A program made the position numbers and the translations under genes. A stretch of DNA of 36,858 nt, taken from the NCBI GenBank assembly GCA_030655015.1, contig JAURWJ010000067.1, forward strand, positions 1-36,858, in the 5' to 3' direction. The notes beneath the pieces were generated by a model. That model saw nothing but the letters and a program-made list of their open reading frames with translations, was not told the DNA's origin and ran no database searches. Below are positions 12,480-32,711 of this stretch, in pieces (the first letter of the stretch is position 1; every line of letters begins with the position of its first letter). This stretch comes from Methylotenera sp. (GTDB taxonomy: Bacteria > Pseudomonadota > Gammaproteobacteria > Burkholderiales > Methylophilaceae).

Positions 12480-12549
12480 TGTAAGTGACCCCATAAGCTG
12501 CAAGTTTGCCCTCATAAGTTGCAAGTAACGCCTTCATAATATGCAACTT
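12480..12549 (+). repeat. Transposon end next to nrdJb with three TnsB-type sites
   Basis: Three directly repeated sites, CATAAGCTGCAAGTT (12492), CATAAGTTGCAAGTA (12513) and CATAATATGCAACTT (12535), are spaced 21-22 bp apart. The first starts 12 bp from the TGT tip. Tight spacing resembles the right end of Tn7, which also lies on the tnsA side and abuts the target gene. Confidence 0.88.
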
Positions 12550-12578
12550 AAACGTAACACTTTATAGTGAGATACTAG

Positions 12579-12821
12579 ATGAAATCCTACACACTAAAGA
12601 AAAATGGTGATACTGAAGAGCTCCATCTATTTGAAGGCGATATGACAACTGAAGGTTGTACATCAAACTCAAAGTCTATTTGTAAAAAGATGGATAAATC
12701 TGAAAGTGGAGGAAATGTCTTTGCTTGTAAAAATGATAAAGATGCAAGAACTAAGTGCGCTGAATCAGGAAGAAAAGTGTGTGGTATTTGTGTAAGCCAT
12801 CTTTATACTACCTACACTTAG
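12579..12821 (+). CDS. Small cysteine-rich hypothetical protein
   Basis: An 80-residue, lysine-rich protein with six cysteines (TEGCTSN, KSICKK, VFACKN, TKCAES, RKVCGICVS). It has no signal peptide or transmembrane segment. The cysteines are not arranged as a standard zinc ribbon. No strong ribosome site is visible before the ATG (weak GAG). It lies 30 bp inside the transposon end, is oriented inward, and is followed by a large hairpin and a terminator, so it forms a complete single-gene unit. I do not recognise a family. It could be a small cargo gene of gene-cassette type or an effector. Confidence 0.55.
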   Translation: MKSYTLKKNGDTEELHLFEGDMTTEGCTSNSKSICKKMDKSESGGNVFACKNDKDARTKCAESGRKVCGICVSHLYTTYT

Positions 12822-12846
12822 GATAGCTCAGTTTAGCTATTTTTAC

Positions 12847-12901
12847 GGTGCCTCATAAGGCGAAGCAATTACTATGCGTAAGTAAATTGTTATGCGGCAC
12901 C
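12847..12901 (+). repeat. 55-bp hairpin with an unpaired bulge, attC-like layout
   Basis: GGTGCC (12847-12852) pairs with GGCACC (12896-12901), CATAA (12854-12858) with TTATG (12890-12894), and CAATT (12866-12870) with AATTG (12885-12889). A seven-base bulge lies on one side. Two paired blocks with extrahelical bases, just after a small ORF, recall an integron attC site. However, the conserved AAC/GTT core bases do not match on the 5' side. It may also be only a structured 3' untranslated region. Confidence 0.4.
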
Positions 12902-12934
12902 ATATTCAATGCAACACGATTTTATCAAACTCAG

Positions 12935-12955
12935 TTGGGCTCACAGCCCAATTTT
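12935..12955 (+). terminator. Rho-independent terminator after the small Cys-rich gene
   Basis: TTGGGCT, a three-base loop CAC and AGCCCAA form a perfect 7-bp stem followed by TTTT on the + strand. It ends the rightward unit from the transposon end, before the convergent reverse operon. Confidence 0.6.
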
Positions 12956-13030
12956 GGACTATGTGAGATTAAAAGATTGAACACGGCTTATCCTGTGTTA
13001 AAGAAGGTGGCTTGAAATTAAAGTGACAAC

Positions 13031-14236
13031 TTAAGATATTAGATTAGTCCATTTCCTGCGTAAAACTGCACCCCTATTTGAAGATAAATAGCTAGCAGCG
13101 CCTCGATTAGCATCTATAGATTCCAGAAAATCTCGCTTTTGTCCTTTGATACCTTTGGCATGAAGCACTTTAAGCGCTTCTTCCGCTTGGTCTAGTTGTT
13201 TTACGTAAGTATCGATAGTTTCATCAAAGGTCTGTTTAACCGAATTTGTTGCTTGATGGTGAAGGCATTGTAAATAATGGCGAAATGCCTGTTGCTCAGT
13301 AAAGCCTGCCAATTGTGGCTGTGGAGCTGTAAATAACTCGTCTGCGAAATTACTACCATATACATCATCTGTTCGGAGGTTATCTAGCACTCCACTTTTC
13401 TTAGCTAAATCCAGATAACCTATTTTGTATTCAGAAAATAAATGTGGAGCGTAGTACCAAATTGATCGCTGTTTAATTTCATCATCATCTTGCAATATAA
13501 ATTTTTCTTCGTTAAATGACCTGACATTCATCCAAGTTCCTGATGCAATTGCAGTTGCTGCTGAGCTCGCCACTAAAAGCATCTGGTGATTACAGTAGCC
13601 TACAATAACTTGTTTACCAGCTAATCTTATTCCCGCTACTACATCTGCAACATTTGCTAGCCATCCAGGATCAGTTACTAAATAATCGCCATTGGGATGC
13701 TCGCATACCAAGTAGATTGATGGCACATCCCATTCTGGCAATGATTCAAGCAATAGCTGAACTTGATCATCATTTCTAAGTGCATCATAACTTAGTGCCA
13801 CCGTCATAATTGTGCTTACGCCCTTTGTGTCACAACGCTGCGACTCTTCAATTACCTGTCTTTGAGACTCTAACCAATCATCGTCAACGCGTTTTGCAAT
13901 CATGCCTGGCAGTATGATTTGCTTAGCGCCAATTCGTTGATTAATATCGATTAGATTTATTAGGCATTTGCTTAATTCAGGTCCATTTGGGAAGCTACTT
14001 GAAGTTGGCCAGAATGAATGAACTATTAATCTATCGTGGTTGGTTAATACTGGATTGTATAATTGAGGGTCTAATACTACGCTACCACCTAACTTTATAG
14101 TTTCTTTAGATAGCCTTTCAAGTTGAGTCTCATTAAGGTCTCTTGGACTTAATATGACAGTACCACTACCCCAATACTTTATTAGTGAACGACTGTGCTC
14201 CATCATTCCATAACCAAACTGTAAATATAATTCCAT
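13031..14236 (-). CDS. Conserved protein of unknown function, last gene of the nuclease-kinase operon
   Basis: A 401-residue soluble protein with no signal or membrane segment. The start MELYLQFGYGMMEHSRSLIK is chosen because AAGGA lies 7 bases before this ATG. A GTG at 14314, directly after the kinase stop, would add 26 residues. Several blocks look like strands and helices of an alpha/beta barrel: TVILSPRDLN, GGSVVLDPQLYNP, KQIILPGMIA, SIYLVCEHPNGDYL, GKQVIVGYCNHQMLLVASSAATAIASGTWMNVRSF. The C-terminal 100 residues are helical and charged. The TIM-barrel reading, perhaps distantly like tRNA-guanine transglycosylases, is inference only; no catalytic signature was identified. The context implies it works with the kinase and nuclease. 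Confidence 0.75.
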   Translation of the reverse strand: MELYLQFGYGMMEHSRSLIKYWGSGTVILSPRDLNETQLERLSKETIKLGGSVVLDPQLYNPVLTNHDRLIVHSFWPTSSSFPNGPELSKCLINLIDINQRIGAKQIILPGMIAKRVDDDWLESQRQVIEESQRCDTKGVSTIMTVALSYDALRNDDQVQLLLESLPEWDVPSIYLVCEHPNGDYLVTDPGWLANVADVVAGIRLAGKQVIVGYCNHQMLLVASSAATAIASGTWMNVRSFNEEKFILQDDDEIKQRSIWYYAPHLFSEYKIGYLDLAKKSGVLDNLRTDDVYGSNFADELFTAPQPQLAGFTEQQAFRHYLQCLHHQATNSVKQTFDETIDTYVKQLDQAEEALKVLHAKGIKGQKRDFLESIDANRGAASYLSSNRGAVLRRKWTNLIS

Positions 14237-14314
14237 TGTTAGGTCCTTAATACTTTGGTTTAGATATTTTGAATGGCGACTAATTATGCGTTCTACATGA
14301 AGCCAAATCTGCAC

Positions 14315-15166
14315 TCAAACAGCTCCCAAATCAAATATTTCACGCATCCATTCGTAAGCCTCGGCTGCAGTTGATATACGGTGGATTCTTTTTTGGCGCG
14401 TCATACTTGTTATTAGATCTTTCAAATCATCCTTGTTATCTACTTGACGGCTAATTTCTGGGCAAATTACTGTGTTCATTCTGTGAATGACTTCGTCTGC
14501 ACTTGTGACGCCATGAGTATAAGGATTTACTCCTTCAATACACTCATAAAGTGTCACACCAAGTGAAAACAAATCTGATCGTGTATCAATCTCTGCCTTG
14601 AGGCAGTTCAACTGTTCTAAGGGGGCATATCCAAGTGTATGTGGCATGAATCCCGCCGTCAATGAAGTGCGTCCCAAGTGACGAGCTATACCGAAATCAA
14701 CAAGCCAGCAAATGCTTTCATCTGGCGCTATAAGAATATTGTCTGGCTTAATATCCCGATGGACAATCTGATGTGCTTCAGCTTCAACTAATACAGCTAA
14801 CATATCAAAAGCTATTTGCAGAATAAGGGCGTTCGAGATAGGGCCTTGTGCTAACTTATCTTTAAGTGACACACCATCGACCCACTGTTCAATTAGCCAT
14901 AAATGATCATGATATGGTTCAGTTAGTCTGCCGGATTCGTAGACCTGAGGAACTCTGCCATTGCCAATGGCATTTACAGAGGCTATTTCTCTATCAAATC
15001 TCTCTGGGCTTGAGCTTGGAATAAGTAATTTAAGTGCAACTCGACCATGTTGCTGATGGTTTGCAGCATAGACGGTTTTTTGTCCGCCAGTCGCTACATA
15101 TTCAAACCCATTTAAACTAGTTAGTTGTTGTGTTAGAACATCCAAGCTATAGGGTTGTGAAGACAT
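14315..15166 (-). CDS. Hanks-type serine/threonine protein kinase
   Basis: A 283-residue kinase made of the catalytic domain only, without transmembrane or PASTA parts. Motifs in order are the glycine-rich loop ATGGQKTVYAA, VALK with Lys46, catalytic loop HRDIKPDN (Asp138, Lys140, Asn143), DFG (157-159) and APLE (181-184) followed by DTRSDLFSLGVTLYE. All residues for phosphotransfer are present, so it should be active. The upstream stop and this ATG share a base (TAATG), and the next gene follows directly, so the three genes form one operon. A cytosolic kinase beside a nuclease on a mobile element suggests a defence role in which phosphorylation controls a partner, as known for single-gene Stk2 and kinase-bearing BREX variants. 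This is inference. Confidence 0.92.
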   Translation of the reverse strand: MSSQPYSLDVLTQQLTSLNGFEYVATGGQKTVYAANHQQHGRVALKLLIPSSSPERFDREIASVNAIGNGRVPQVYESGRLTEPYHDHLWLIEQWVDGVSLKDKLAQGPISNALILQIAFDMLAVLVEAEAHQIVHRDIKPDNILIAPDESICWLVDFGIARHLGRTSLTAGFMPHTLGYAPLEQLNCLKAEIDTRSDLFSLGVTLYECIEGVNPYTHGVTSADEVIHRMNTVICPEISRQVDNKDDLKDLITSMTRQKRIHRISTAAEAYEWMREIFDLGAV

Positions 15167-15900
15167 TAGGCTTCTAGATTATCTGAGAACTTCCACGCCC
15201 ACTCGTTAAATAACCAAGCAGCATGAGAGGTAGGTAATGATCCTACTTTTGACTTTAGGTAAGGTTGTGTGACAGATCGATTTTTATCCAATATTCCAAC
15301 GCCCAGTCTTTCTGCATTTTTGAATAAATTTTGGGAGTTCGGTAATGATTCTAGGAGTAAGTAAGATTCGGAGGCAAACAAAGTATTTTGAAAGGCCTGC
15401 TCTAAACCTTTGCTCCAATCTCTGACTTTAGCCTCGATTGCAACGATTCGTTTTACTGCGAAGGTATTGCTTAAAGGTTTGCGTAAAATCTCATCAGATT
15501 GGACTTCAGCTACTTGTGAGTCTGACAATCGAAGCATCATTTCACTTGTTTTGCGAGTACCAAATCTTTTGACTAACTGCTCTACCGGTATCTGGCCTAC
15601 CAAATTTACATGGTGCACTATGGCCATATCAGAGGATGTAAGGTTGGCGCGAGCTTCAGGCCATGTATGTGATACTTCTTTATCCCAAAATACCGCAACA
15701 ATGTCAGGAAAGCCAGTATTAAGCTTAGGCTCTAAAAAAATAGATAACGACTCATTTACACCCAAGCTAGCAAGGTGCTCCTCGCAATACATGTTAACAA
15801 TGTCTAGCTCAGGGCCATTGGTCGGCTGTCTAAAAATTGTCTCTGCAGTATTGCCTGCTTGCGATGTAAAGTAAGAAATCACGTTAGGAGTATATCGCAT
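15166..15900 (-). CDS. PD-(D/E)XK nuclease-like protein with inserted helix-turn-helix
   Basis: A 244-residue protein. The nuclease signature can be read as Glu57 in EPKL, Asp66 in TGFPDIVAV, Glu156 and Lys158 in VAIEAKVRDW, and Gln168 in LEQAFQNT, followed by a SYLLL strand. This is the order and spacing of PD-(D/E)XK folds. Between the two halves (about residues 92-138) is a region like a winged helix: IVHHVNLVGQIPVEQLVKRFGTRKTSEMMLRL. It is the first gene of the reverse operon and shares one base with the kinase start. The promoter must lie between 15900 and the divergent HTH gene. It could cut DNA or act as a sensor with a nuclease-derived fold. I do not recognise a named family. Confidence 0.75.
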   Translation of the reverse strand: MRYTPNVISYFTSQAGNTAETIFRQPTNGPELDIVNMYCEEHLASLGVNESLSIFLEPKLNTGFPDIVAVFWDKEVSHTWPEARANLTSSDMAIVHHVNLVGQIPVEQLVKRFGTRKTSEMMLRLSDSQVAEVQSDEILRKPLSNTFAVKRIVAIEAKVRDWSKGLEQAFQNTLFASESYLLLESLPNSQNLFKNAERLGVGILDKNRSVTQPYLKSKVGSLPTSHAAWLFNEWAWKFSDNLEA

Positions 15901-15948
15901 CTTTATATTTCTAATAGCTATTTTTCATATTATGTTGAATATTCTTAA

Positions 15949-15965
15949 TGCAATTACATGTTGCA
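15949..15965. promoter_or_regulatory. Candidate operator between the nuclease-kinase operon and its HTH regulator
   Basis: TGCAA (15949-15953) and TTGCA (15961-15965) form a dyad in the divergent intergenic region. Just downstream, repeated ATGCAAA units occur (about 15980-15996). Such AT-rich dyads beside an HTH gene are typical self-regulatory operators. No binding evidence exists beyond position and symmetry. Confidence 0.35.
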
Positions 15966-15996
15966 ATTTTACCAAAATATATGCAAAAATGCAAAT

Positions 15997-16347
15997 ATGA
16001 AAGAATCAACTTGCATAGATACGCCCAAGTCTATTTCCGATGAGCTAACTGCAAAATTTAAACAGGCTGGCATAAAGCAGCCTCTAATAGCTGAAAAAAC
16101 TGAGGTTAATCAATCTCAAGTATCGCTGATACTTTCTGGTAAGTTTAAAAGACGCTCTAAAAACGTAGATAAAATATGCAAATATGCAAAATTAAAAATA
16201 ATTGAGCATAAAGTTGACCAGATAAAAGTTGATCCAATACACAATCAAGTCTTAATGGATGCGCTAAGTAACGCTTGGGATGGAACTGATAGTCATGCCA
16301 AAATAATAGCAAAAATACTTAACGCACTAGGCAGTCTAAAAGCTTAA
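15997..16347 (+). CDS. XRE-like helix-turn-helix regulator
   Basis: A 116-residue protein (129 if the ATG at 15958 is used; neither start has a clear ribosome site). The segment QPLIAEKTEVNQSQVSLILSGKFKRRSKNVDKICKYA is a lambda-Cro/XRE type helix-turn-helix. The recognition helix is about NQSQVSLILSG. The N terminus predicts a helix containing DELTAKFKQAGIK, and the C terminus (QVLMDALSNAWDG...AKIIAKILNAL) is helical and may mediate dimerisation. It is divergent from the nuclease-kinase operon, so it most likely represses that operon and itself. A rho-independent terminator follows at 16431. It is AT-rich relative to the flanking chromosome. Confidence 0.75.
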   Translation: MKESTCIDTPKSISDELTAKFKQAGIKQPLIAEKTEVNQSQVSLILSGKFKRRSKNVDKICKYAKLKIIEHKVDQIKVDPIHNQVLMDALSNAWDGTDSHAKIIAKILNALGSLKA

Positions 16348-16430
16348 CCAATCAGCGAGTGAAATTTAATTACTAACTTAGGACTCACAATTTCTTTAAG
16401 TCATTCAATAAAAATTATTTTGTCAAATCT

Positions 16431-16452
16431 AGCCGCTAAATAAGCGGCTTTT
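16431..16452 (+). terminator. Rho-independent terminator after the HTH gene
   Basis: AGCCGCT (16431-16437) and AGCGGCT (16443-16449) form a perfect 7-bp stem with a 5-base loop, followed by TTTT. It lies about 85 bases past the HTH stop and separates this unit from the tns operon. Confidence 0.75.
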
Positions 16453-16701: not shown

Positions 16702-16739
16702 TGAAAGGAAGTATCGAAGAAAAGAAGCTTAAGAGTGAA

Positions 16740-16999: not shown

Positions 17000-17680
17000 A
17001 TGAATCAATTAATAGCAGTACCTAAGATACAAATAATTTTCCCTAAAGATGGAAAAATCCGCAGCCGTAAAGTAGTAAAACGTTCAAACGCACGCAATAC
17101 CGGCAAATATCCTAGCTGGAAAATGCAACGCATGATGCAGTGGGAATCGGTGCATGAAGGTAACGCCATGCGTATCCTAGATGCGACACCCAATGTCACT
17201 TCGTTCACGGAGCAGCCGTGTGAAATCATTTATACACTTAACGATATTCAGCATCGGCATTACCCAGATCTGATGGTGATTGAAGGTAATTATCGCCAGC
17301 TCTGGGAAGTTAAAACTGAGTCAGATGCTAATAGTCCTGAAGTGGCTGAACGGACCAATTTCTTGATAAAGTACTTGCCAGAATATGGATATACCTATCG
17401 TGTTGTGCTTGCAGAAGTAGTGGCTAAACAACCGCGACTAAATAACATAAAACGACTGAACAAGCTTGGACGACACCCAATTTCTAGTTTTGAGCAAGAG
17501 CGTTTCAGACGCCTCTTTATAAATGAACCGGTCATCTCTTGGGGAGTGTTTGAACAACAATCCCCTCAATCACTACGCCATATCAGTCGCTTGATACTTC
17601 AAGGCAAGCTCAGCATCGACTTTAATCAACCCATTAGTCCAGCTACTTCAATTCGTAGCAACTTCAACGCACAACACTAG
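17000..17680 (+). CDS. tnsA: TnsA-like transposon endonuclease
   Basis: A 226-residue endonuclease that, with TnsB, cuts the transposon free by cleaving the 5' ends. Catalytic residues are visible: Glu49 or Glu53 in WESVHEGN, Asp90 in RHYPDLMV, and Glu103/Lys105 in LWEVKTE. This is the restriction-enzyme-like core. The N-terminal KYPSWKMQRMMQWES is typical. It is shorter than Tn7 TnsA (273 residues), mainly in the C-terminal domain that contacts TnsC. An AGGAG ribosome site lies 7 bases before the ATG. It is the first gene of the tnsA-tnsB-tnsC-tniQ operon, with 9 bases to tnsB. Its presence implies cut-and-paste rather than replicative transposition. Confidence 0.93.
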   Translation: MNQLIAVPKIQIIFPKDGKIRSRKVVKRSNARNTGKYPSWKMQRMMQWESVHEGNAMRILDATPNVTSFTEQPCEIIYTLNDIQHRHYPDLMVIEGNYRQLWEVKTESDANSPEVAERTNFLIKYLPEYGYTYRVVLAEVVAKQPRLNNIKRLNKLGRHPISSFEQERFRRLFINEPVISWGVFEQQSPQSLRHISRLILQGKLSIDFNQPISPATSIRSNFNAQH

Positions 17681-17689
17681 GAGCACATC

Positions 17690-19696
17690 ATGGCAATCGC
17701 ATATTTTTGTAAAAACACGTCTTTTGATATGGACGGACGTGAGTATCAACTCACTCAAGAAATCACTACAGGTCTTTGGCAGGTACATGAAGTACGTACT
17801 GGCAGAATTCATGAATTTAGTATCCAGGAACTACAACAGCATTATTCAGAGGGGAAATTAGTATTTATGGAGGATGCTGAAAAGTCAGCAAAAACCAAAG
17901 AAGCCTTTAAAGAAAAGTCTAAAAAAATTAGTCATCAAACCGATAGTATTGAATGGGAAAAAGCCAAAATTAGACGTATGTATGTCAAGGCAGTTGAGCA
18001 CTTGCCATGTACAGCGGCATTGATGAAAGCAGCTATTCAAGAGGTCTGGAAAAAACGCAACAAAGACAAGAGCGAAGCCGATGCCGAAATTGCTCCTAAC
18101 TGGACCACCGTCTCTAGATGGAAAAAGAAATATCTGACCAACGGTAAAGACGCGTTTGCATTGGTTGACGAGCATCACCATAAGGGCAATCGAAATGATC
18201 GCTATGATGAAGAAGTGATGCATATCGTTTCCGACTGTATTGATAAGATTTATCTTCAGCGCGAACGCAAAACGATAGAGGACACAACTGAGGAAGCAGT
18301 TGTAATGGTAACGCGCGAGAATAAGCAGCGTGCTAGATTAGAGCAATTACCTGTACCAACCAGAAGACTCGTTAGAAGGATGATTGGCTTGATCCCTGCC
18401 TTTGATCGATGTGCAGCAAGATATGGGCGTATTGCAGCCAATCGTATTTATCGAAGCAAATTAAAACATTTAGTCACTAAAAAAGCGCTGGAATCGGCTG
18501 AAATAGATCATACCAAGCTAGACCTATTTGTTATTGATGATGATTCACATATTCCACTCGGTAGACCATGGCTGACCATATGTATAGATAGCCATACACG
18601 CTGCATATTAGGGATATACATCGGCTTCGAACCACCTAGCTATCTCACCGTTGGTAAATGCTTAAAGCACGCATTCCTGCCTAAATCTGACTTGCAACAG
18701 CAATATCCAGATATCCGGAATTCATGGGAGGCACACGGCGTTATGGAGCAATTGTTTGTAGATAACGGTTTAGAGTTTCACAGCATTAGCTTAGAGAAGG
18801 CCTGCTTCGCTTTTGGTGTAGAGATTATTTACACGCCACGTAAGCAACCATGGTTTAAGGGCAAGATTGAACGCTTCAATCGCACACTCAATGAAGGGAT
18901 TAGCCATGGCATATCAGGTACTACTTTCAGTAATATCTTTGAAAAAGATGATTACGATCCTGCCAAACATGCAGTCGTGACATTAAGTTCGCTACGACTC
19001 ATTATCCATAAATGGATTGCTGATTATTATCACCAAAAGCCACATCGTAGTTTAGATGAACAGACTCCAGCAATCATGTGGTCAAGTAGTGTTCACACAG
19101 AGGATATTGCGCTAGCACACAACCCGGCAGAAATGGATGTATTGCTAGGTAAAGCAGTTCGAGACAAACGAGTCACTCACAAAGGGATTGAGATTAACAA
19201 TTTGTTATATAACTCACCAGAATTGATGCAACTAAGACGTAAGTACGGTGAGGAGTTAACAGTAGAGATCCGCATCGACGAAAGCGATATTGGCCATCTA
19301 TATGTCATCTTAAAAGACCATCAGGGTCATATTGAAGTACCCGCACTCGACAAGGATTACGCATCAGGTACGACCCTATGGCAACACAAGATTTGTCGTA
19401 AATATGCAAAAGAAAATTTCAATAAAGTTGATGTGTATAGCTATGCACGTGCAAAGACTGAGATTCGTGAGATTGTCGAAAACGAACTGAAGCTTAAACG
19501 CAAAAAATCTAACTCTAAAATCGCGCGTCATAACGATGCCAATCAGCAAGCTGCAATTAAGGCTGCAGCTAAATCAGCTGTAAATAAAGCCCAAAAAATT
19601 GGCAGTAAAAAACCAGATAAGTCACTCGGTTCAAACAAGCCTGCTGTAGCAAAGATTCGTCCTAGCTACACCCCTGTTATCGACCAACGCGCTTAA
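17690..19696 (+). CDS. tnsB: TnsB-like DDE transposase
   Basis: A 668-residue transposase of the retroviral-integrase superfamily that binds the end repeats and joins 3' ends to target DNA. N-terminal helix-turn-helix domains (about residues 90-260) contain NWTTVSRWKKKYLTNG. The rve core gives the DDE triad: Asp273 in EIDHTKLDL, Asp358 in LFVDNGLEF, and Glu394 in KGKIERFNRTL. HSRSLDE-like residues (PHRSLDEQTPA) and a mu-type beta-barrel region follow. The basic C-terminal tail (about 600-668) would hold the TnsC-interacting peptide. Length is close to Tn7 TnsB (702). A GGAG site precedes the ATG. Its binding sites are the CATAAGYTGCAAGT repeats at both ends of the element. Confidence 0.95.
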   Translation: MAIAYFCKNTSFDMDGREYQLTQEITTGLWQVHEVRTGRIHEFSIQELQQHYSEGKLVFMEDAEKSAKTKEAFKEKSKKISHQTDSIEWEKAKIRRMYVKAVEHLPCTAALMKAAIQEVWKKRNKDKSEADAEIAPNWTTVSRWKKKYLTNGKDAFALVDEHHHKGNRNDRYDEEVMHIVSDCIDKIYLQRERKTIEDTTEEAVVMVTRENKQRARLEQLPVPTRRLVRRMIGLIPAFDRCAARYGRIAANRIYRSKLKHLVTKKALESAEIDHTKLDLFVIDDDSHIPLGRPWLTICIDSHTRCILGIYIGFEPPSYLTVGKCLKHAFLPKSDLQQQYPDIRNSWEAHGVMEQLFVDNGLEFHSISLEKACFAFGVEIIYTPRKQPWFKGKIERFNRTLNEGISHGISGTTFSNIFEKDDYDPAKHAVVTLSSLRLIIHKWIADYYHQKPHRSLDEQTPAIMWSSSVHTEDIALAHNPAEMDVLLGKAVRDKRVTHKGIEINNLLYNSPELMQLRRKYGEELTVEIRIDESDIGHLYVILKDHQGHIEVPALDKDYASGTTLWQHKICRKYAKENFNKVDVYSYARAKTEIREIVENELKLKRKKSNSKIARHNDANQQAAIKAAAKSAVNKAQKIGSKKPDKSLGSNKPAVAKIRPSYTPVIDQRA

Positions 19697-21962: not shown

Positions 21963-22144
21963 CACGGCATGTTCCGACTCTGCTGACCGGTTGCGGGACG
22001 AGAGGTTACTTACTTCCATTTATTTACGGCCAAATATGCTCAGAGAAGCGTCATCGACATCGAAGTTATTTTTTCTGTATAATTTACATATAGGTTATAA
22101 ATTTAACGTCCCGCAACCGGTCAGCAGAGTCGGAACATGCCGTG
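21963..22144. repeat. Perfect 38-bp inverted repeat flanking a 106-bp spacer
   Basis: Arms 21963-22000 and 22107-22144 are exact reverse complements over 38 bases (CACGGCATGTTCC... and ...GGAACATGCCGTG), and identity stops sharply on both sides. No target duplication flanks it and no ORF of note lies in it. The gap from tniQ to the next gene (21899-22204) consists mainly of this structure. It might be a miniature element, an invertible switch or an antisense pair. Confidence 0.85.
22054..22083 (+). promoter_or_regulatory. Near-consensus sigma70 promoter inside the inverted repeat
   Basis: TCGACA (22054-22059, five of six consensus bases) is followed after 18 bases by a perfect TATAAT (22078-22083). 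The predicted start near 22090 reads through the right 38-bp arm and then antisense into the 3' end of the HEPN/zinc gene. Confidence 0.55.
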
Positions 22145-24218: not shown

Positions 24219-27200
24219 ATGTCTATAAACAATAAATTTGACTCAGTTCGTGCTTCAAAAGACGGTCACGAGTTCCATGAAGCTTGGGTAGCACGAAAAT
24301 GCTTAGGTTTATTGCTACCCAGAGACGACTTTATCGGCATCGCGATCGAAGGTTTTTCAAACGTCGACCAGAAATCAACATCAAAAGAAGCAAATGAAAT
24401 CGCGGATGCTGTTTTGTACTATGGGAAGCATACATCCTTTGATGAAGCTCGTCAGATTGTTGTTATACAAGTCAAATATTCAAAGGCTGCCGAATTAAAT
24501 CCCTTCCGCGCCGCAGATGCTAAGAAAACTCTTAAAAAGTTTGCAGGTACTTACCAATCCCATAAAAAGCAACATGGTGTACATGCAGCCAGGGAGAAGC
24601 TTCGCTTCGAATTAATTACTAATCGTCCGATTCTGTCAGAACTTAACGAAGCAATACTTGGACTGCGTTCAGGAGCCGAATTACAAGGAGTGGCCAAAAC
24701 TCAGGCAAACCAGATTAAGTCTGCATGTGGACTTCAAGGAACAGATCTCATTGAGTTTGTCGATCGCCTCCAAATGATTAGTCTTACAGGCGATTTGAGC
24801 GACATCAAACATAAATTAGCAATGGCCATTGCGGACTGGTCGCCTGCACGTGATTTATTGGCCAGAGTCAGATTAAATGCTGTAAGAGAATTAGCTAGAA
24901 ACAAAGCAAATCTAGTCAATCAAAATAAAAATGTCATTATGCGAGCCGATGTTCTTACAGCCCTTGAGCTGCAAGACGAAGGTGAACTTTTACCATGCCC
25001 CACAAGCTTTCCAGATATAGGTCCAGTAGTCGAAAGGCAGCAACTCGCCGAAACAGTTATTAGTATCCCTAGCCTGAATAGACCTTTAGTTATCCATGCG
25101 GATGGAGGTGTTGGTAAGACGGTCTTTATAAACTCGGTCGCAAGTCACCTTTCACAGCTTCATGAAGTTGTTCTATTTGATTGCTTTGGCATGGGCCAGT
25201 ATCGTGCCCCGGGGGACGCAAGGCATCTGCCAGCCAGAGGGTTGCTTCAAATCATTAACGAACTTGCTTGTCGTGGATTATGCGATCCGCTTTTACCAAC
25301 CACAGACAATAGCGACGATTTAATTCGAATCTTCCGAATTAGAATTGCTCAAGCAGCGGAAACGGTTTGTAGAGTAGCGTCAAATCGACAATTAGTGCTT
25401 CTTATAGATGCTATCGACAACGCTAGTGAGCATGCTAGAGATCGAGATGAGCCATCTTTCCCAAGGCTTCTTATAGAGAGTATTGACCGTACTGGACCCA
25501 TTGAAGGCGTTCAGCTAGTGGTCAGTTCACGTACCCATCGCAGACTTGCAGCAACTGGCGGTATTCGATGTGAGGAAGTTGAGTTGCAGCCGTTCACTGT
25601 TGATGAAACTGCTCAGTTTTTACAAAGTCGTGTAAAGAATTTAACGGATGTCACCATTCAGGTTGCGCAATCCAGATCACGTGGCAATGCCAGAATTCTC
25701 GAGCATCTAGCAAATGATGAGAAGAGTCTTCTAGCTCCATCGGAGCTTAACAATATTATTAAACTAGATGATCTATTGAGGAAGCGAATTGAAAATGCTC
25801 TCGCAATCGCTCGAAGACAAGGTTATCGAGATGAAGATATCAAAGCATTCCTAGCTGGATTAGCCACCTTACCACCGCCAGTTCCAGTGTCAGAGTTCGC
25901 TGAAGCAAATGGCTTGGCTGTAGGAGCAGTTAATAGTTTTGCTGCTGATCTTTCCCCACTTCTTGAACAAACCAAGCATGGCTTAATGTTCCGCGATGAA
26001 CCCACAGAAACATTAATAAGAGAAGATTATTCGGCTGATAAAGACACCCTACGGGCGCTCGCAAAAAACCTGAATAACATGCAGGCAGTATCGGTATATG
26101 CAGCGACGACGTTACCAGACCTTCTTCAGCAATTGGATGATGGGGAGCAGTTATTTAATCTTGCCTTTGATGAAAGAGTCCCGGCAACAATCAAAAGCGC
26201 AGTGGGTAGGCAAGCGATCAGACATGCTCGTATTCGGGCAGCAGTGGCACATGCAGCTGCCCATAACGACTCTGATCGGCTTGTACATCTTCTTGTGGAG
26301 CTATCGACTTTGGCCGCTGTTGATCAGCGAGGTACCAAATACATACAAGACCATCCAGAGTTAACTGTCCTTTCAGGTGACATAGATTCAATTAGGCGCC
26401 TATTCGAGGCTCGTACAAGTTGGCCTGGAAAACGTCATGCTCGATTGGCAATTGCGCACATCTTAATGGGTGATGTCGCAGACGCATACCGACATGCGCA
26501 GCGGGTATACGAATGGAGAAGACACTATTTCCAACAGAATGAAGAATATCGAAGAGAACAAGATGGGCCAACACCGTTAGATATGTGTGCTATTCCGTTT
26601 AGTCGGATAGCCAAGGGAGATAGCAAGAAAGCGGCTGAAGACCTTGCTGGGTGGAATGATTGGTATGCTTTTGAAATTGCAAAATTACTTTTTCCATTGT
26701 TGCAGTTGGGAGTGTCGACAGGGATTATTCAACAAGAACCGATTTTTAGATTTCTCGAGTTTTGTAATGATCAATGTGGTGTTCTCGCTGCTGCAATTCC
26801 ATTTACCGAAAGTGATGCATCCTTGCAAAGCTCTCTTATTGCTAATTTGGCTAAAGCCTGCATTAACTCGGAAGGTCTCAAGCTCAAAAATGCTCATCAT
26901 CACTCAGGTGAACCTTCGATTATTCGGGGTCTACTTGGAGCTGCAACATTAGCTTTAAAGCTTGGGCTTAAGACGGAAGCAAGCAGTATCCTGTCTGTGA
27001 TTCAGATTTCTCCACCCTCGCTACACACATTTACGGGCAGTTATTGGGCAGATGAGATTTCCCCATTTCTTGCTAAGCAAATGCTCAGTTGTCTGGCAAA
27101 TGGTACAGCTATTGATGAGAGGAAATTACTTCCTAAAGAACTGGCTGAATTCAGTGAGCACATATCATCCGAATTGCAGGGGCAAGACTTTAAGAAAGCC

Positions 27201-30200
27201 TTGAAGGAGCATCTAGAAAAAGCTTTTCAAGCTCAAAAAGCTAATCCTCCAAACCCACAGAGCATAAGCTATGAAACTAAACAAACTTCAGAGCGGTTTA
27301 TTGATAGCAATTTAGACTCTTGGCTGCAGATCTGTCGTGCATTTGCGGAAGCTTTATACCCACATAATGGACGTAAGGTCTCAATTGATCCATTGCTTGA
27401 TCTCTGGAACAAGCTGCGCACCAAAAATGATTATTACGCTGGGGGCGCTACTGCTCAACGTAGATATGGTGCAGTAGGAGAAAGGTTGTTGACGCTAGTA
27501 CTCAAAGCCGATCGTATGTTGGATAAATCGGAAGTACAACGATATGTTGACATCATTAGTGAGGAGGGGGTCACAACAATATCAAATGCCATTGAGATTA
27601 TCGAAATTCTGGCTGTTCGGGATCCACTCCATTTTTTGGCAGGTACCGCCGCTGTAAAAATAAGGAATGTGATCGAGCGAGAGCATGAAGTCGATCAGAG
27701 AGCCTCTTTTTTTGCAGATTTGGCTATTGCTATGTCGCCAGCCAGTCCGAGTGAGGCTTCGGAATATTTCCGGATGGGCCTAGAGCAAATGGATGCAATT
27801 GGGTCAGGCGATTATCAATTCGTAAATGAATTAATGCAATTCGCCAGCTCTCTGCAAGGTGATGAGCTCACTGATCCAGATAGTCATACCCTTTCAAATA
27901 TCTGTGATCTCAACCTAGGTGAGGAGCATAAGTTCCATTGGGGATTGTATGGAACAGCAATGGCTAAGACATCAGGAGTGAAAGGGGTGGCTAAGCTAGC
28001 TCGTTGGGAGGATCGTGACAGAGTTTCATTAGACTATACTCTACTACCCTACCTGAGGGCTTTATTGGATAGTGACAAAATTGATCCTGCGATCGCGCTT
28101 ACGATGCTGCGCGTGTCTAAACCGGCAGAACTATATGTCTGTGGTACTGAGCAAATAGTCGAAACAATTGAAAGTAAACCATTCGATTCAAAGGATGAAC
28201 TGACCAGAGAACTTATCGCGCAGTATTCGCGAAATAACCCAGGATCATTCGGATCCGAGACCCCACGCGCTCTGTCACGGCTTGCAGAGATAACCTTGGG
28301 CAAGGCTTCGCCAGAATATGTTTATCTATATTCTTCAGCGGCTCAAATCAAAAAAACGACAACTGAATACAACGAACTAAACAATTGGCGGAGTATGCGA
28401 CCCAAACATGGGATTCATCATCGCAACGCTGAAGAAAACCTGACTCCGTTATCGATAACAACCCTTGTCGCAGAAACAGACCCATTAAATGACGTGTCAA
28501 TTGCCAAGGCAATTGAAGCCTTAGACGGTATGCAAACCTTCATGCATTTGCAGCGTGATTTTCTTGAGCAGCTAAGGACAAAAGTATCGTTTAGTGCATG
28601 CCCTTTGTATATTGAAATCATTGCAAGACATGAAAGACTCTCCCTCTTTGATAAATTGCATGAATTAGCTGAGTGTAAGAAAGCTTGGTCTAGTTCATCA
28701 AATGCTATTGCACTAGCTTTACGTGCTAGTGCTGAAATTATCATCCGAGAAAACGCATTCGATTTTATTTCATACGAGTATCTTTCCATCTCTAATCTCA
28801 AAGAGCTATCGGAAATTTCCTGCGTTAATTGCGAGATGTTGATTCTGGGACTAATCAGAGAATTTTCTCGTCCAGGTAACGATGTTCCTGCTGCTGTTTG
28901 GTTAGGCTTAGCTACTATATTCAACGGAGTAGCTACTAGAAATGTAGGACAAGCGGCTCTAAAACGGCTGCTTAACAGTGGGCCTGCGAAACTTGCATCG
29001 ACGGTAGCCGATGGTGCTTGGCAATCTACACTTTATCCTGATGATGACCAAACTGAATGCGCCGCCGGCTTAATATGGTTTGCTCTTGGATCACCTCGTG
29101 CTGAACGTCGATGGATGGGTGCAGAAAGTCTTCGAACAGCCGTACGCTTGAATAGAGTAGATGTGTTAGTCCAAGTTATTGCCAAGTTCACTAGTAATAG
29201 CTCGGGGCCTTTCCAAGCGGGGGAATTACCATTCTTCTATTTACATGCACAACTGTGGCTACTAATAGCATTGGCACGAATAGCAATAGATGCCCCAAAT
29301 GTAATTGCGGTACATAGAGCTTTTCTTGAAAGTATTGCATTCAATGAAAGTGATAGACATGTTTTATTTAAACATTTTGCTACCTCTGCACTCATTACAT
29401 GTAAAAGCAGTGGTCATCTAACATTCGATACTGCATTTAATGATGCACTAGCAGAGGTTAATCACTCGCCGTTCGATTTGCAAGTTACAGATCAATATCA
29501 TGGAACTTCGTATTATCAATCTCGCCCAGAAGGCATTCCTGAGCCTGCGGAGAAACTCTATCTAGATTATGACTTTGATAAATATCAGGTCTCGAGTTTA
29601 TGTGATTTGTTCAATAGATTTCGTTGGGATATTACAGATGCGATGCTTGGCTGGATAGGGAATCATGATAAGAAAGTCGATTCTATGTACGACTCTGGTA
29701 ATCGGCCTGAAAGCCACCGCCGTCGGGGCAACGATTTTTCCGATGATTATCATTCATATGGAGAATATCTTTGCTGGCATGCTTTATATGGAGTCGCCGG
29801 AGAATTTATAAAAAAATACCCTATCGTCCGACGGCCCTATGATGAGCATAATCCGTGGAATGACTGGCTACGTCGACAAGTTCTGACTCGAGAAGATGGT
29901 CTGTGGCTCTCCGACGGCACCGATTTGTCACCAGTTGATTTACGTATAAATCTTCGCGAAGTAATCGATGATCAAGTAGTTTTGACAGGATCTGTGGAGA
30001 AATTGCTTTCCTTAATAGGTATCAAAAATGCTATAGGCGAATGGGTAACAGTGGACGCAGACTGGTGTTCAATCGATAATATTAAGGTACATATCAGTTC
30101 TGCATTAGTTCCAAAGGGAAAAAGTGCAAGTATTGCAGGCGACCTGGCAAAACAAAATCCTTTTCAAGCATATCTGCCACATCTCGATGTTTATGAAGAT

Positions 30201-30680
30201 GAAGATGTTGAAGCCATGCGTTCTCATAAACCCTATATTCCTTGGATAACTAGCCCTTCTGCGGAAGCTAAGCTTGATGAGGGTGATACTTTAGGTATTG
30301 TAGGAGCGATGCGAAGATCAAGACTGTCCAAAGCTGTAAATACATTTGGGCAGCTAATTTCGAAAGATCCGTTCGGTCGGAGTTGGATTGATCCCGCTGG
30401 TAAGGTTATAGTTAGTTCCGAAGCGTGGTGTCAATATTCCGATCGTAGGAATGAGGGACCTTTTAGTGGCTTACGGATGCAATGTAAATCTGATTTCATT
30501 AAAGATTATCTTGTGGCTAACAACAGCCACTTATTGGTCCTAATAATCCTTCGGCGTTATGAATCAGGATTTGGCGGAGATAAAGCTAAATACTGGCATT
30601 CCACTGCTGTTGTTCGGGTGACCGAAACATTGGATTATGAATATTATCCTGGTCGTATTAATGAGATGGAAAAATTGTAA
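24219..30680 (+). CDS. Giant STAND-type NTPase with nuclease-like N terminus (candidate defence sensor)
   Basis: A 2153-residue protein. The N-terminal domain (about 1-210) looks like a DUF4297/Cap4-type nuclease: Glu44 in IAIEGF, Asp63 in EIADAVLYYG, and Gln84-x-Lys86 in VVIQVKYSKA. The NTPase follows: Walker A HADGGVGKT (Lys300), Walker B LVLLIDAIDNA (Asp397, Asp400), and sensor strand VQLVVSSRTHRR, typical of STAND proteins. About 1500 residues of helical, probably repeat-containing sequence follow and end in a compact domain rich in aromatics. The layout effector-NTPase-long sensor is that of Avs/AVAST proteins, which recognise phage proteins and become active nucleases. Assignment to a known Avs type is not possible from sequence alone. 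No membrane segments are seen. Confidence 0.82.
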   Translation: MSINNKFDSVRASKDGHEFHEAWVARKCLGLLLPRDDFIGIAIEGFSNVDQKSTSKEANEIADAVLYYGKHTSFDEARQIVVIQVKYSKAAELNPFRAADAKKTLKKFAGTYQSHKKQHGVHAAREKLRFELITNRPILSELNEAILGLRSGAELQGVAKTQANQIKSACGLQGTDLIEFVDRLQMISLTGDLSDIKHKLAMAIADWSPARDLLARVRLNAVRELARNKANLVNQNKNVIMRADVLTALELQDEGELLPCPTSFPDIGPVVERQQLAETVISIPSLNRPLVIHADGGVGKTVFINSVASHLSQLHEVVLFDCFGMGQYRAPGDARHLPARGLLQIINELACRGLCDPLLPTTDNSDDLIRIFRIRIAQAAETVCRVASNRQLVLLIDAIDNASEHARDRDEPSFPRLLIESIDRTGPIEGVQLVVSSRTHRRLAATGGIRCEEVELQPFTVDETAQFLQSRVKNLTDVTIQVAQSRSRGNARILEHLANDEKSLLAPSELNNIIKLDDLLRKRIENALAIARRQGYRDEDIKAFLAGLATLPPPVPVSEFAEANGLAVGAVNSFAADLSPLLEQTKHGLMFRDEPTETLIREDYSADKDTLRALAKNLNNMQAVSVYAATTLPDLLQQLDDGEQLFNLAFDERVPATIKSAVGRQAIRHARIRAAVAHAAAHNDSDRLVHLLVELSTLAAVDQRGTKYIQDHPELTVLSGDIDSIRRLFEARTSWPGKRHARLAIAHILMGDVADAYRHAQRVYEWRRHYFQQNEEYRREQDGPTPLDMCAIPFSRIAKGDSKKAAEDLAGWNDWYAFEIAKLLFPLLQLGVSTGIIQQEPIFRFLEFCNDQCGVLAAAIPFTESDASLQSSLIANLAKACINSEGLKLKNAHHHSGEPSIIRGLLGAATLALKLGLKTEASSILSVIQISPPSLHTFTGSYWADEISPFLAKQMLSCLANGTAIDERKLLPKELAEFSEHISSELQGQDFKKALKEHLEKAFQAQKANPPNPQSISYETKQTSERFIDSNLDSWLQICRAFAEALYPHNGRKVSIDPLLDLWNKLRTKNDYYAGGATAQRRYGAVGERLLTLVLKADRMLDKSEVQRYVDIISEEGVTTISNAIEIIEILAVRDPLHFLAGTAAVKIRNVIEREHEVDQRASFFADLAIAMSPASPSEASEYFRMGLEQMDAIGSGDYQFVNELMQFASSLQGDELTDPDSHTLSNICDLNLGEEHKFHWGLYGTAMAKTSGVKGVAKLARWEDRDRVSLDYTLLPYLRALLDSDKIDPAIALTMLRVSKPAELYVCGTEQIVETIESKPFDSKDELTRELIAQYSRNNPGSFGSETPRALSRLAEITLGKASPEYVYLYSSAAQIKKTTTEYNELNNWRSMRPKHGIHHRNAEENLTPLSITTLVAETDPLNDVSIAKAIEALDGMQTFMHLQRDFLEQLRTKVSFSACPLYIEIIARHERLSLFDKLHELAECKKAWSSSSNAIALALRASAEIIIRENAFDFISYEYLSISNLKELSEISCVNCEMLILGLIREFSRPGNDVPAAVWLGLATIFNGVATRNVGQAALKRLLNSGPAKLASTVADGAWQSTLYPDDDQTECAAGLIWFALGSPRAERRWMGAESLRTAVRLNRVDVLVQVIAKFTSNSSGPFQAGELPFFYLHAQLWLLIALARIAIDAPNVIAVHRAFLESIAFNESDRHVLFKHFATSALITCKSSGHLTFDTAFNDALAEVNHSPFDLQVTDQYHGTSYYQSRPEGIPEPAEKLYLDYDFDKYQVSSLCDLFNRFRWDITDAMLGWIGNHDKKVDSMYDSGNRPESHRRRGNDFSDDYHSYGEYLCWHALYGVAGEFIKKYPIVRRPYDEHNPWNDWLRRQVLTREDGLWLSDGTDLSPVDLRINLREVIDDQVVLTGSVEKLLSLIGIKNAIGEWVTVDADWCSIDNIKVHISSALVPKGKSASIAGDLAKQNPFQAYLPHLDVYEDEDVEAMRSHKPYIPWITSPSAEAKLDEGDTLGIVGAMRRSRLSKAVNTFGQLISKDPFGRSWIDPAGKVIVSSEAWCQYSDRRNEGPFSGLRMQCKSDFIKDYLVANNSHLLVLIILRRYESGFGGDKAKYWHSTAVVRVTETLDYEYYPGRINEMEKL

Positions 30681-30765
30681 TTTTGACTCTTACAGAAGCT
30701 TAGAGGTTTGAACTAGTTGTAATAAGTAACAATAGTAATTTCAGCAAAAATTATAAAAGGTTGTT

Positions 30766-31314
30766 ATGGAAGGATTAAAGAAATTAGATCAGCTGACAAA
30801 GATGGATGAAATGCATCAGCTTACCTCTCAAATTACAGGGCAATTAATCGAACTTGAATTACTTCATAAAGCCGTTTCATCTATAACGCTCCACGAGGGA
30901 GTCCCTGAAGAGATACAGGGGCAGTTTAATGTTGCTCGCAACATGGCTTTATATCAATACTTTCACTATGCGCTGGCTCCAGAGATACAATTAAAAACGT
31001 ATACGATAATAGAGTTTGCGTTACGACTAAGGGCAAATTCAACTAAAAGGCTAATGCTCAGCGCGCTTGTGGAAATGGCCGTCAAAAAAAGCTGGATTAC
31101 TGACGCAGGATTCCGACACATCAAAAATCCTCAGCCTGATAATCTTTATTGTAAGCAACTCAAAGAGGTACTACCAAGACTTCGTAATGGAGCAGCGCAT
31201 GGCTCTAGCAATCTAACCCCTGAGAGTGTTGGTCATCTTGCAATATGTGCCGATTTAGTAAATCAGCTGTTTAGCGAAAAGGCACAAACTACAAGTCTTA
31301 GCCTAATTTGCTGA
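30766..31314 (+). CDS. Small HEPN-like helical protein
   Basis: A 182-residue all-helical protein. RLRNGAAHGSSNLTPES contains Arg140, Asn141 and His145, the R-N-x3-H form of the HEPN motif, followed by a closing helix (HLAICADLVNQLF). The N-terminal third is amphipathic and may be a coiled coil. An AAGG site lies about 8 bases before the ATG. It follows the giant NTPase by 85 bases on the same strand and could be a partner, effector or unrelated cargo. The motif is also found in non-catalytic HEPN-type proteins annotated as hypothetical or Apea-like, so RNase activity is uncertain. Confidence 0.65.
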   Translation: MEGLKKLDQLTKMDEMHQLTSQITGQLIELELLHKAVSSITLHEGVPEEIQGQFNVARNMALYQYFHYALAPEIQLKTYTIIEFALRLRANSTKRLMLSALVEMAVKKSWITDAGFRHIKNPQPDNLYCKQLKEVLPRLRNGAAHGSSNLTPESVGHLAICADLVNQLFSEKAQTTSLSLIC

Positions 31315-31365
31315 TATTCTTGTGCCATCTTAAAAGACTGTGACCAACATATATTCCTAAGTAAT

Positions 31366-32427
31366 TTATTTGATCTCGAAGAAAAGCGTGATCAATAAAC
31401 TCTTCTGCTTCTCTATTTCAGGTTTAGAGAGGTACTCAATATTTTTATTACTTACTTGGTTTTTCCATTCTGTAATAAACGGTGGCCCCAATTCATTGAG
31501 GCAAGTTGATACTTTAGCATTCCATTGAGCCCACATATTTTTACACTGACTGTTAAGAGCCCGAGCGCAGATATTCTGGACCTCAGCTGCTTCTGAAACT
31601 AGCCCGATTATTTGCTTGCGAATAGTTTTGTGCGCGGCGGAAGTGTTTGGGCCTGAAGATGGTTCGGGTCCAAAATAAATACCAATAGTTTTTGGCGGTA
31701 GAGAATCGTCTTCAACACTACGGACTGGAATTGCCATCTGAGTAAATGCCATATTAATAATAATTTGGCTTGAACTCATGACTTTCCAACGACCAAGATG
31801 AGGTGGCAATTTCTCTTGATTTATAATGCCATTGCTAGAAGCTATGGCCATACCATCTACTGGAATATCGGGATCCATTCTATAAACCCGATCCGAATCA
31901 ATTTTCCATCCTGCCTGACTAAAAAGAATGAGGAACTTTCCAGCTACTACACAAGAAGCGTCACTCCAACTTATACAGCCGATTCTTACAGTGTCACGCG
32001 GCTCGAATTGTTTGGTTTTCAATAGCTCTAAGAAATACCCTCTTCTTGGTTCAGATAAATCATATGGCCTTTGTGAGTATTCTAACGAAGGTATCTTCTT
32101 TTTTGATTCTTGAAATTGGGTTTTTGCAACTTGCTGATGTTGGAAATACCAAACTAATCCAATTACAAGGATGAAAATAAAAAATAACGCTATATGCTTT
32201 ATGGATATACGGCGCAATCTTTTCCATAATGATTGTTGAGTGTCGTATTCAATATGACCATGTTCAATTTTAACGTCGCAAATAAGTAAGAGAACACCTA
32301 TCACAACAAATGAAACCCCAACCCACAATGCCTCTGGGTAAATCACTAATAAACCTGTGCCAATCATAGAAAGCCCCTCAAATAAGGAGCCTGAGGTAAA
32401 ACTAAATCGCACGATCTCTTTTCCCAA
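31366..32427 (-). CDS. Membrane protein of unknown function
   Basis: A 353-residue protein (338-350 with later starts). Three hydrophobic helices lie in the first 95 residues: GLSMIGTGLLVIYP, ALWVGVSFVVIGVLLLICDV and HIALFFIFILVIGLVWYF. A large soluble domain follows, with GCISWSDASCVVAGKFLILFSQAGWKID and a C-terminal helical part with several cysteines. TTG 32427 has no ribosome site; GTG 32412 has a better purine stretch before it. The soluble part recalls two-transmembrane proteins that precede a receiver or effector domain, but no family was recognised. It is the last gene before the distal transposon end and points inward, converging on the HEPN-like gene. 32428-32574 contains nothing else of note. 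Confidence 0.6.
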   Translation of the reverse strand: MGKEIVRFSFTSGSLFEGLSMIGTGLLVIYPEALWVGVSFVVIGVLLLICDVKIEHGHIEYDTQQSLWKRLRRISIKHIALFFIFILVIGLVWYFQHQQVAKTQFQESKKKIPSLEYSQRPYDLSEPRRGYFLELLKTKQFEPRDTVRIGCISWSDASCVVAGKFLILFSQAGWKIDSDRVYRMDPDIPVDGMAIASSNGIINQEKLPPHLGRWKVMSSSQIIINMAFTQMAIPVRSVEDDSLPPKTIGIYFGPEPSSGPNTSAAHKTIRKQIIGLVSEAAEVQNICARALNSQCKNMWAQWNAKVSTCLNELGPPFITEWKNQVSNKNIEYLSKPEIEKQKSLLITLFFEIK

Positions 32428-32574
32428 AAAAGAAAGTCACATGATACATTACTTAGAATTAGGAACGATTCATTAGTTAATGGCCTATCATTTTTAAATC
32501 GAATAATCAGCGCGATGCAGTAAGATTGTGTTGAATGTAAAGCATTCATGCTCTGAGCTAACCAGCTTGGGAGC

Positions 32575-32711
32575 AATTGCAACTTATGTGTAAATTTTTG
32601 AGGAAACTTGCAGTTTATGGCGGTAATAAATTGCAGCTTATGCCGTAACTCAATACATGCAGATGATTGATTATGTGGGGATCTTAATTGCATCTTATGA
32701 TGCCTCCCACA
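32575..32711 (-). repeat. Distal transposon end with four inverted TnsB-type sites
   Basis: Four sites in inverse orientation relative to the left end: AATTGCAACTTATG (32575-32588), ACTTGCAGTTTATG (32606-32619), AATTGCAGCTTATG (32629-32642) and AATTGCATCTTATG (32686-32699). The outermost ends 12 bp before the terminal ACA, exactly as at the other end. Spacing is loose (31, 23 and 57 bp), like the left end of Tn7. A degenerate extra site may lie in the 57-bp interval near 32657. Confidence 0.88.

Follow-up and report, generated by a model that had tools for sequence, protein, structure and literature searches.

How did a Tn7-like element come to lie directly behind the ribonucleotide reductase gene nrdJb of a Methylotenera genome, and could it still find that site with the short selector protein that it now encodes? 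These questions are raised by a stretch of 36,858 nucleotides (contig JAURWJ010000067.1, assembly GCA_030655015.1), the whole of which is here called the window; its source genome is referred to as G000. A first-pass annotation had placed an element at 12480-32711 with intact genes and possibly still mobile. Sequence comparison makes it probable that this is a Tn7-like element of the homing type, that it carries defence-type cargo, and that its selector has been cut to a core-only TniQ, with the likely loss of unaided homing to nrdJb.

Ends of the element and target duplication

The Tn7-like element occupies window positions 12480-32711, a length of 20,232 bp. It begins 31 bp after the stop codon of nrdJb, which is left intact and whose partner reductase gene lies at 9397-11571. 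The features that define its limits are as follows.

11744-12448, plus strand: nrdJb, gene for the TSCPD-domain subunit of class II ribonucleotide reductase (Pfam TSCPD, 3.6e-9), its 3' end the presumed attachment site
12475-12479, no strand: left copy of the target duplication, ATTTA
12480-12548, plus strand: tnsA-proximal (target-proximal) end, with the TGT tip and TnsB-like sites at 12492, 12513 and, weakly, 12535
32575-32711, minus strand: distal end, with dispersed TnsB-like sites at 32575, 32606, 32629 and 32686 and the ACA tip
32712-32716, no strand: right copy of the target duplication, ATTTA

The left junction reads ATTTA (12475-12479) followed by TGTAAGTGACCC, the TGT tip standing at 12480 and CATAAGCTGCAAGT at 12492. 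The right junction reads CTTATG ATGCCTCCCACA, ending with ACA at 32709-32711, followed by ATTTA. At each end, 12 bp separate the tip from the first CATAAG-type site. The sequence thus has the end features of Tn7-like elements: TGT...ACA tips, an array of TnsB sites on either side and a 5-bp target duplication. The base-precise limits of the first-pass annotation were borne out by the tips, the duplication and the equal spacing, and six relatives could be bounded by the same rule, each with its own 5-bp duplication.

The end sites were compared with CATAAGYTGCAAGT. On the left, those at 12492 and 12513 have no mismatch and that at 12535 has three; on the right, read on the minus strand, the site at 32686 has two and those at 32629, 32606 and 32575 have one each. 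By these counts there are two exact, four close and one weak copy. Three left and four right copies had been proposed, of which six hold; the third left site (12535) is at background level, being no better than seven other three-mismatch matches elsewhere in the window. The site pattern CATAAGYTGCAAKT, in which K was permitted after the right end had been seen, gave six matches in the window at no more than one mismatch, all six of them within the element ends; in 100 shuffled sequences the mean number was 0.11 and the highest 2. The left end, nearest tnsA, is compact, its sites following one another at 21-22 bp, and that on the right is dispersed; the compact left-end layout recurs at related elements. 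In Tn7 the compact tnsA-proximal end is by convention the 'right' end and the dispersed end the 'left' end, so that by compactness and tnsA proximity the left end in the window corresponds to the 'right' end of Tn7. The first-pass annotation mentions neither this correspondence nor the role of nrdJb as attachment gene.

Transposition genes

Four transposition genes follow one another on one strand in the order tnsA-B-C-Q. Identities are given relative to genome G039 (Methylotenera sp. WB-IL-03).

17000-17680, plus strand: tnsA (Pfam Tn7_TnsA-like_N, 6e-7), 81% identical
17690-19696, plus strand: tnsB, DDE transposase (Pfam rve_3 and Mu-transpos_C), 84% identical
19710-20741, plus strand: tnsC, AAA+ ATPase (Pfam TniB, 2e-25), 79% identical
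20738-21898, plus strand: tniQ/tnsD, short form of 386 residues (Pfam TniQ, 3e-16), with the core kept, the C-terminal ~245 residues of relatives absent and residues 331-386 diverged

By Pfam the element has both the TnsA endonuclease and the TnsB DDE transposase of Tn7-like transposons, and a TnsC (TniB) and a TniQ-domain protein (TniQ) within the same gene cluster. Motifs that we take to be of DDE, PD-(D/E)xK, Walker and zinc type are readable in TnsABC and TniQ. The earlier statement that all four proteins keep their key residues accordingly agrees with Pfam recognition and with the readable motifs, but TniQ is incomplete. Past tniQ, the following gene is encoded on the minus strand.

The nrdJb site across the Methylophilaceae

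Similar ends lie behind nrdJb in several genomes (30 loci of the genus examined). We searched 187 Methylophilaceae genomes with an end-only pattern, TGT-N9-CATAAG plus a second site, which contains no target bases and no nrdJb sequence; it was written after the ends at nrdJb had been seen, and therefore favours this element group. The pattern matched 30 times in 26 genomes, its reversed form once. Twenty-two of the 30 ends lie 26-33 bp behind the nrdJb stop, across nine genera. The other eight, assigned by eye, fall into four placements: three (G037-E2, G039-E2, G034a) come after the far end of another element, two (G052b at 197 bp, G019 at 327 bp) lie further behind nrdJb past older end-like sequence, one (G028) is at a contig edge, and two away from nrdJb are weighed below. 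The G011 end, 29 bp behind nrdJb, was missed by the pattern and seen by eye as a 23rd case.

The selector genes show the same association. TniQ was found at 21 places in 19 of the 187 genomes, and 13 of these places encode a protein at least 32% identical to the window TniQ. Eleven of the 13 are on the same strand as nrdJb and at most 45 kb downstream of it (G000, G039, two in G037, G011, G051, G225, G157, G162, G154 and G148); in G007 the locus is split over contigs, and the last, in G052, is taken up below. None of the eight places under 32% identity was shown at nrdJb, five of them being on other contigs and hence not excluded. The Pfam TniQ model had no match in 12 of 28 genomes (the 26 with pattern matches plus G011 and G024), many of them drafts, as would fit a frequent occurrence of disabled or borrowed copies at nrdJb.

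Among 46 distinct nrdJb genes, the last 16 residues of the protein (219-234) are at least 91% conserved, and wobble bases vary freely. Since the wobble positions of the last codons are not unusually conserved, no TnsD footprint is readable in these genes; conserved residues with free wobble are a condition with which any selector that reads the conserved end of a gene has to cope.

A second end type, TGTGCGACA...CATAAGNGACTAG, occurs in G164, G051, G017, G039, G007, G207, G210, G215 and G014, and uses the nrdJb site in eight of these nine genomes, in G039 as a stacked element. TnsB is 70-75% identical to that of the window in G051, which has this end type, and in G011, which has a TGTGCGCCA end; G007, again with the second type, has a 72% identical TnsB on another contig. 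From these sequences, TnsB and its end sites may co-vary. Extra partial copies of the nrdJb 3' end, one broken by stops, are found near the attachment site at G154:C8:542002-542286 and G225:C10:143611-143730, and are possible duplicated attachment sites.

Bounded relatives, empty and stacked sites

Relatives were bounded by pairing the five bases that precede a tip with ACA plus the same five bases, at least two sites being required nearby. Within the 15 stretches examined, exactly one partner end was found for each of seven elements.

Window: 20,232 bp, duplication ATTTA
G039: 36,220 bp, duplication CACGT
G037: 28,677 bp, duplication TTGTT
G011: 21,073 bp, duplication AATAT
G051: 30,396 bp, duplication TTGTT
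G225: 29,314 bp, duplication GATAT
G157: 24,549 bp, duplication CCTTT

For nine further tips, including those of the second element in G039 and in G037, no partner was found; several of the stretches stop 4-20 kb past the tip. Each of the seven bounded elements has its tnsA-proximal end towards nrdJb, with tnsA-B-C-Q pointing away from that gene. Together with the 22 of 30 ends, this gives the fixed distance and orientation behind a conserved gene that characterise TnsD homing.

The elements of G037 (Methylotenera mobilis 13), G039 and G225 (Betaproteobacteria HGW-1) agree with that of the window in site, orientation, gene order and end architecture, with TnsB identities of 82%, 84% and 51%, respectively. 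They differ in having TnsD frames of 638-650 residues and lengths of 29-36 kb, and those of G039 and G037 are stacked with second elements.

An element-free counterpart of the G039 site is present in G024, which is 99.5% identical to G039 over 2,295 bp, up to the base before the tip, and reads ...ACACGTATGCG... without an element at the insertion point. The G039 element sits between two copies of CACGT, and the tip of its second element, preceded by CGTAT, comes directly after; CACGT and CGTAT each occur once, overlapping, in G024. In G037 a second element likewise stands directly behind the first, with nested duplications GTTGT and then TTGTT by a by-eye reading, automatic pairing having found no partner for it.

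An empty site for the window insertion was not found: the 1,652 bases next to the right end (32712-34363) have no listed DNA match in 51 other genomes of the genus, with five first-look candidates scored per genome. Continuous sequence across 12480 in a relative, which the first-pass annotation had named as evidence against its limits, does occur formally in G039 (83.6% identity over window 9926-12547); the sole reason is that a related element of its own, flanked by another duplication (CACGT), occupies that position in G039.

The short selector

The window TniQ has 386 residues, compared with frames of 588-650 residues in the six other bounded elements, and the alignment shows it ending where its relatives run on for ~245 residues. 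The long C-terminal target-binding extension of homing TnsDs is absent. Residues 20-330 are 68% identical to G039 and 65-68% identical to close relatives, whereas residues 331-386 are 27% identical to G039 and 27-30% across G039, G037 and G011. Over the latter residues G039 is 80% identical to G037 and 88% to G011. The break is sharp: two adjacent 30-column blocks, meeting at column ~331, are 73% and 24% identical to G039, and nucleotide similarity to G039 ends abruptly at 21711. The tail is in frame, homologous to the same helix-turn-helix (HTH)-like unit, and terminated by a stop. Apart from the TnsD of G051 (42%), its best match in the loci examined is a decayed segment of 36 residues (58%) that also belongs to the G051 element.

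Two simple accounts of the missing part were rejected. A hidden C-terminus after a frameshift left no trace: in a six-frame tblastn of the last 240 residues of seven relatives against the window, the lowest E was 0.087, and the final 240 residues of TnsD from G039, which were matched in four of four relatives searched, had no match in the G000 assembly. Plain truncation by a recent stop would have left residues 331-386 as similar to the relatives as the rest of the protein, so the tail must have been replaced or have diverged first. We infer from the sequences a tail replacement, or fast divergence, together with loss of the C-terminus. The claim of intact genes and a possibly still mobile insertion is therefore not supported: TniQ is core-only with a diverged tail, and its C-terminal ~245 residues are absent from window and assembly alike, which makes it doubtful that the element could direct itself to nrdJb. 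No close relative of the short TniQ came to light: seven of 399 sampled genomes of the order, its own included, match at 1e-15, the best other being 32% identical, and nine plasmid records match at 21.6-30.1% identity.

A structured motif follows the gene directly.

21963-22144, no strand: inverted pair of a 38-bp RNA-like motif, copies at 21963-22000 and 22107-22144

The motif, with the core CGTCCCGCAACCGGTC...AGAGTCGG...AATGCCGTG, occurs at 24 places in 18 of the 187 Methylophilaceae genomes; a reversed control gave none. It lies outside open reading frames of at least 90 residues in the loci viewed, and many copies have a TATAAT-like box upstream. The outer stem covaries, 8 of 12 pairs being changed on both sides and 89% of cells being paired, a share that sliding lowers to 51% or less; the analysis drew on 17 of the 21 sequences, and three of the four omitted have the stem out of register. 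A single motif copy (L143) had no match in Rfam. The match of the pair to MIR168 (E 0.0018; 23.5 bits, where the gathering score is 66) was rejected as a by-product of the long inverted repeat. The motif has the look of a small structured RNA, or of a recombination site, that has not been described.

In G011 (L157) a motif copy lies 66 bp behind a TniQ gene. In the G051 element (L060, 7555-7659) the decayed TniQ-tail-like stretch lies between two inverted motif copies, as if tail and motif had travelled together. In L159 (G206:C6) two copies in the same orientation, at 1169 and 10465-10500, lie on either side of an operon of four genes, which by the sizes and sequence of these genes we take to resemble Wadjet JetABCD. 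The motif may mark cassette boundaries.

Origin and present state of the element

The sequence of events that we favour runs as follows. A Methylophilaceae clade of cut-and-paste elements with TnsA+TnsB, TnsC and TniQ-TnsD would home to one chromosomal site, the full-length TnsD (about 510-640 residues) presumably reading the 3' coding end of nrdJb and delivering the element 26-33 bp past the stop, tnsA-proximal end first, with a 5-bp duplication and nrdJb intact. The window copy would have been placed in this way, either by its own former full TnsD or by one acting in trans. Afterwards its selector would have lost the C-terminal array; what was left would be a TniQ core whose tail is either replaced or strongly diverged. 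At present the ends and TnsABC look usable, but the element most likely can no longer reach nrdJb unaided, being either fixed or mobile only with the selector of another element.

Several observations weigh against this interpretation. With respect to the site, two pattern-matching ends (G014, G052a) are located elsewhere than nrdJb, and the TniQ of G052 is encoded on the opposite strand. The far end of the second G039 element is off the contig, and the right-hand junction with G024 sequence is not seen; a second nrdJb, 85% identical, on contig C27 of G039, near sequence 89% identical to the post-nrdJb sequence of G024, indicates that the G039 assembly may be mixed. With respect to the selector, the full-length proteins of G051, G052 and G225 are only 28-53% identical to G039 over columns 331-390, and because this region varies among full-length selectors at nrdJb, a diverged tail alone is no proof of replacement. 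The ratio of nonsynonymous to synonymous substitution (dN/dS) in the TniQ core is 0.12-0.13 relative to G039 and G037; it equals that of the control pair G039-G037 (0.13), so that there is no sign of long neglect. The undecayed core fits a still-working short TniQ, in a comparison too old to see a recent loss. An AlphaFold model of a full TnsD is poor (mean predicted local distance difference test score 51.8), its C-terminal half having repeated short helix-helix-strand units, as HTH arrays would; the view of the C-terminus as a DNA-binding array thus draws on a weak prediction and on the literature. Finally, the source assembly has draft status (85.22% complete, 5.56% contaminated, 156 contigs): it may have failed to capture a full TnsD, or an error of assembly may account for the break in TniQ.

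The purifying selection on the core is what one would expect if the short TniQ were a working, long-standing form that recruits TnsC while another selector, protein or RNA, provides the target, as in CRISPR-associated transposons (CASTs; CRISPR, clustered regularly interspaced short palindromic repeats) and Tn6022, the element being mobile with changed targeting. The length of the protein resembles that of solved TniQ chains (358-432 residues, matched over profile positions 33-191 only), which we take to come from CASTs. The tail is diverged rather than merely cut, with a decayed relative in another element, and an unusual structured motif follows the gene. A passage in Faure et al. (PMC10293859) calls a small TniQ a hallmark of additional selectors. 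We nevertheless consider this alternative doubtful: all six other bounded elements have long frames, the element is at the usual nrdJb site and spacing, and the gene that follows tniQ has the reverse orientation. The element yielded no CRISPR array, its scanned proteins gave only weak cas matches by PADLOC (Csm6, 0.002; Csx21, 0.006), and neither TnsE nor TnsF was named among their library matches, whether the libraries hold a TnsF model not having been checked. With no repeat array and no cas gene beyond these weak matches, identity as a CAST was rejected.

An assembly chimera, in which the real element has a normal TnsD, is unlikely. The assembly is fragmented and contaminated, similarity to G039 stops abruptly at 21711, and a repeat-like motif pair follows tniQ; yet the tail is in frame, homologous to the corresponding HTH-like unit and ended by a stop, the ends and the duplication of the element still match one another, and the missing G039 residues match nothing in G000. 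A switch from protein homing to a non-TnsD selector serving a functional core-only TniQ, possibly a small structured RNA encoded directly after tniQ, seems very unlikely from what the sequence offers. That nrdJb is merely an island hotspot, left by selection against insertion elsewhere, has very little to recommend it: what follows nrdJb does differ widely among relatives without such an end, but the narrow spacing, the single orientation, the repeated insertion within a few bases in stacked elements and the presence at nrdJb of close but not, as far as shown, of distant TnsD lineages all speak for TnsD homing.

Cargo and right flank

The remaining genes of the element are as follows.

13031-14314, minus strand: 427-residue protein, no family found
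14315-15166, minus strand: Ser/Thr kinase-like protein (best PADLOC models PD-T4-6)
15166-15900, minus strand: 244-residue protein, no family found
15958-16347, plus strand: HTH regulator-like protein (Pfam HTH_37 weak, below cut-off; PHROG transcriptional regulator, 8.4e-6)
22205-23266, minus strand: HEC-08/DUF3644 candidate defence protein (PADLOC HEC-08, 3e-95)
23364-24197, plus strand: Mrr-type restriction endonuclease-like protein (Pfam Mrr_cat, 7e-31)
24219-30680, plus strand: Avs3a-like protein of 2153 residues, a STAND (signal transduction ATPases with numerous domains) NTPase (NCBIfam Avs3a, 7.8e-230; PADLOC Avs3a, 6e-196)
30766-31314, plus strand: 182-residue protein, no firm family
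31366-32427, minus strand: 353-residue protein of phrog_23803 (function unknown)

The cargo is likely of defence type, that is, anti-phage genes. The protein at 24219-30680 matches models of Avs3a (type 3 of the AVAST antiviral STAND NTPases) over its first ~800-1000 residues (about 10-1000), but scores 766 bits against the curated NCBIfam cut-off of 2800, so that by this cut-off it is a relative and not a member.

Directly beyond the right end stands one further gene.

32809-34341: Sll1717-family P-loop ATPase (NCBIfam, 5.6e-56)

This is probably an older island gene. Further along, 34382-34631 holds a ~240-bp dispersed repeat, with copies up to 94% identical in several genomes (five places in G037, for example). 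The segment 34733-34871 has its counterpart 15-21 kb downstream of nrdJb in G003 and G013, and 34950-35140, just before rimP, matches sequence 138-177 kb from nrdJb in the single-contig relatives G051, G050 and G011. The discrepancy across 34871-35140 is either a rearrangement or an assembly join.

Relation to known systems

Tn7 uses TnsABCD at attTn7, behind glmS; most of the Tn7 features compared here are general background. The element resembles Tn7 in TnsA+TnsB, TnsC and a TniQ-domain selector, in its TGT/ACA tips, compact and dispersed end arrays and 5-bp duplication, and in lying just behind a conserved gene in fixed orientation with the tnsA-proximal end next to it. It differs from Tn7 in that the attachment gene is nrdJb rather than glmS, no TnsE was recognised, and the window copy is without the long TnsD C-terminus. 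In Tn7 that C-terminus recognises the glmS 3' end, according to a passage in PMC11406308, and TnsDs with long C-terminal regions of multiple HTH domains are described in part of PMC10293859. CAST and Tn6022 TniQs are core-only and similar in length to that of the window (369 residues in Tn6022, as stated in PMC10293859), but no Cas, CRISPR or TnsF partner was recognised in the window element.

This kind of element is already known, and Tn7-like elements with defence cargo are well known (PMC8649781). No Tn7-like element at nrdJb or another ribonucleotide reductase gene, or in Methylotenera or other Methylophilaceae, was found among the papers listed in the literature search, judged by title and start of abstract, subscription papers lying outside this scope; nor do 'nrd' or 'ribonucleo' occur in the main texts of PMC10293859 and PMC8649781. 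Within that scope the nrdJb site was not found, and its novelty is limited accordingly.

The findings suggest that the nrdJb 3' end serves as a chromosomal attachment site for Tn7-like elements in nine genera of one family, with TnsDs down to 32-33% identity, and as such may represent a new safe landing site. Stacked insertions occur there, and one relative lacks the element. The site offers a natural set of TnsDs and target variants for working out how the target is read. The window copy itself would show a homing selector reduced to its TniQ core, an intermediate expected under the modular-selector view of Tn7 evolution.

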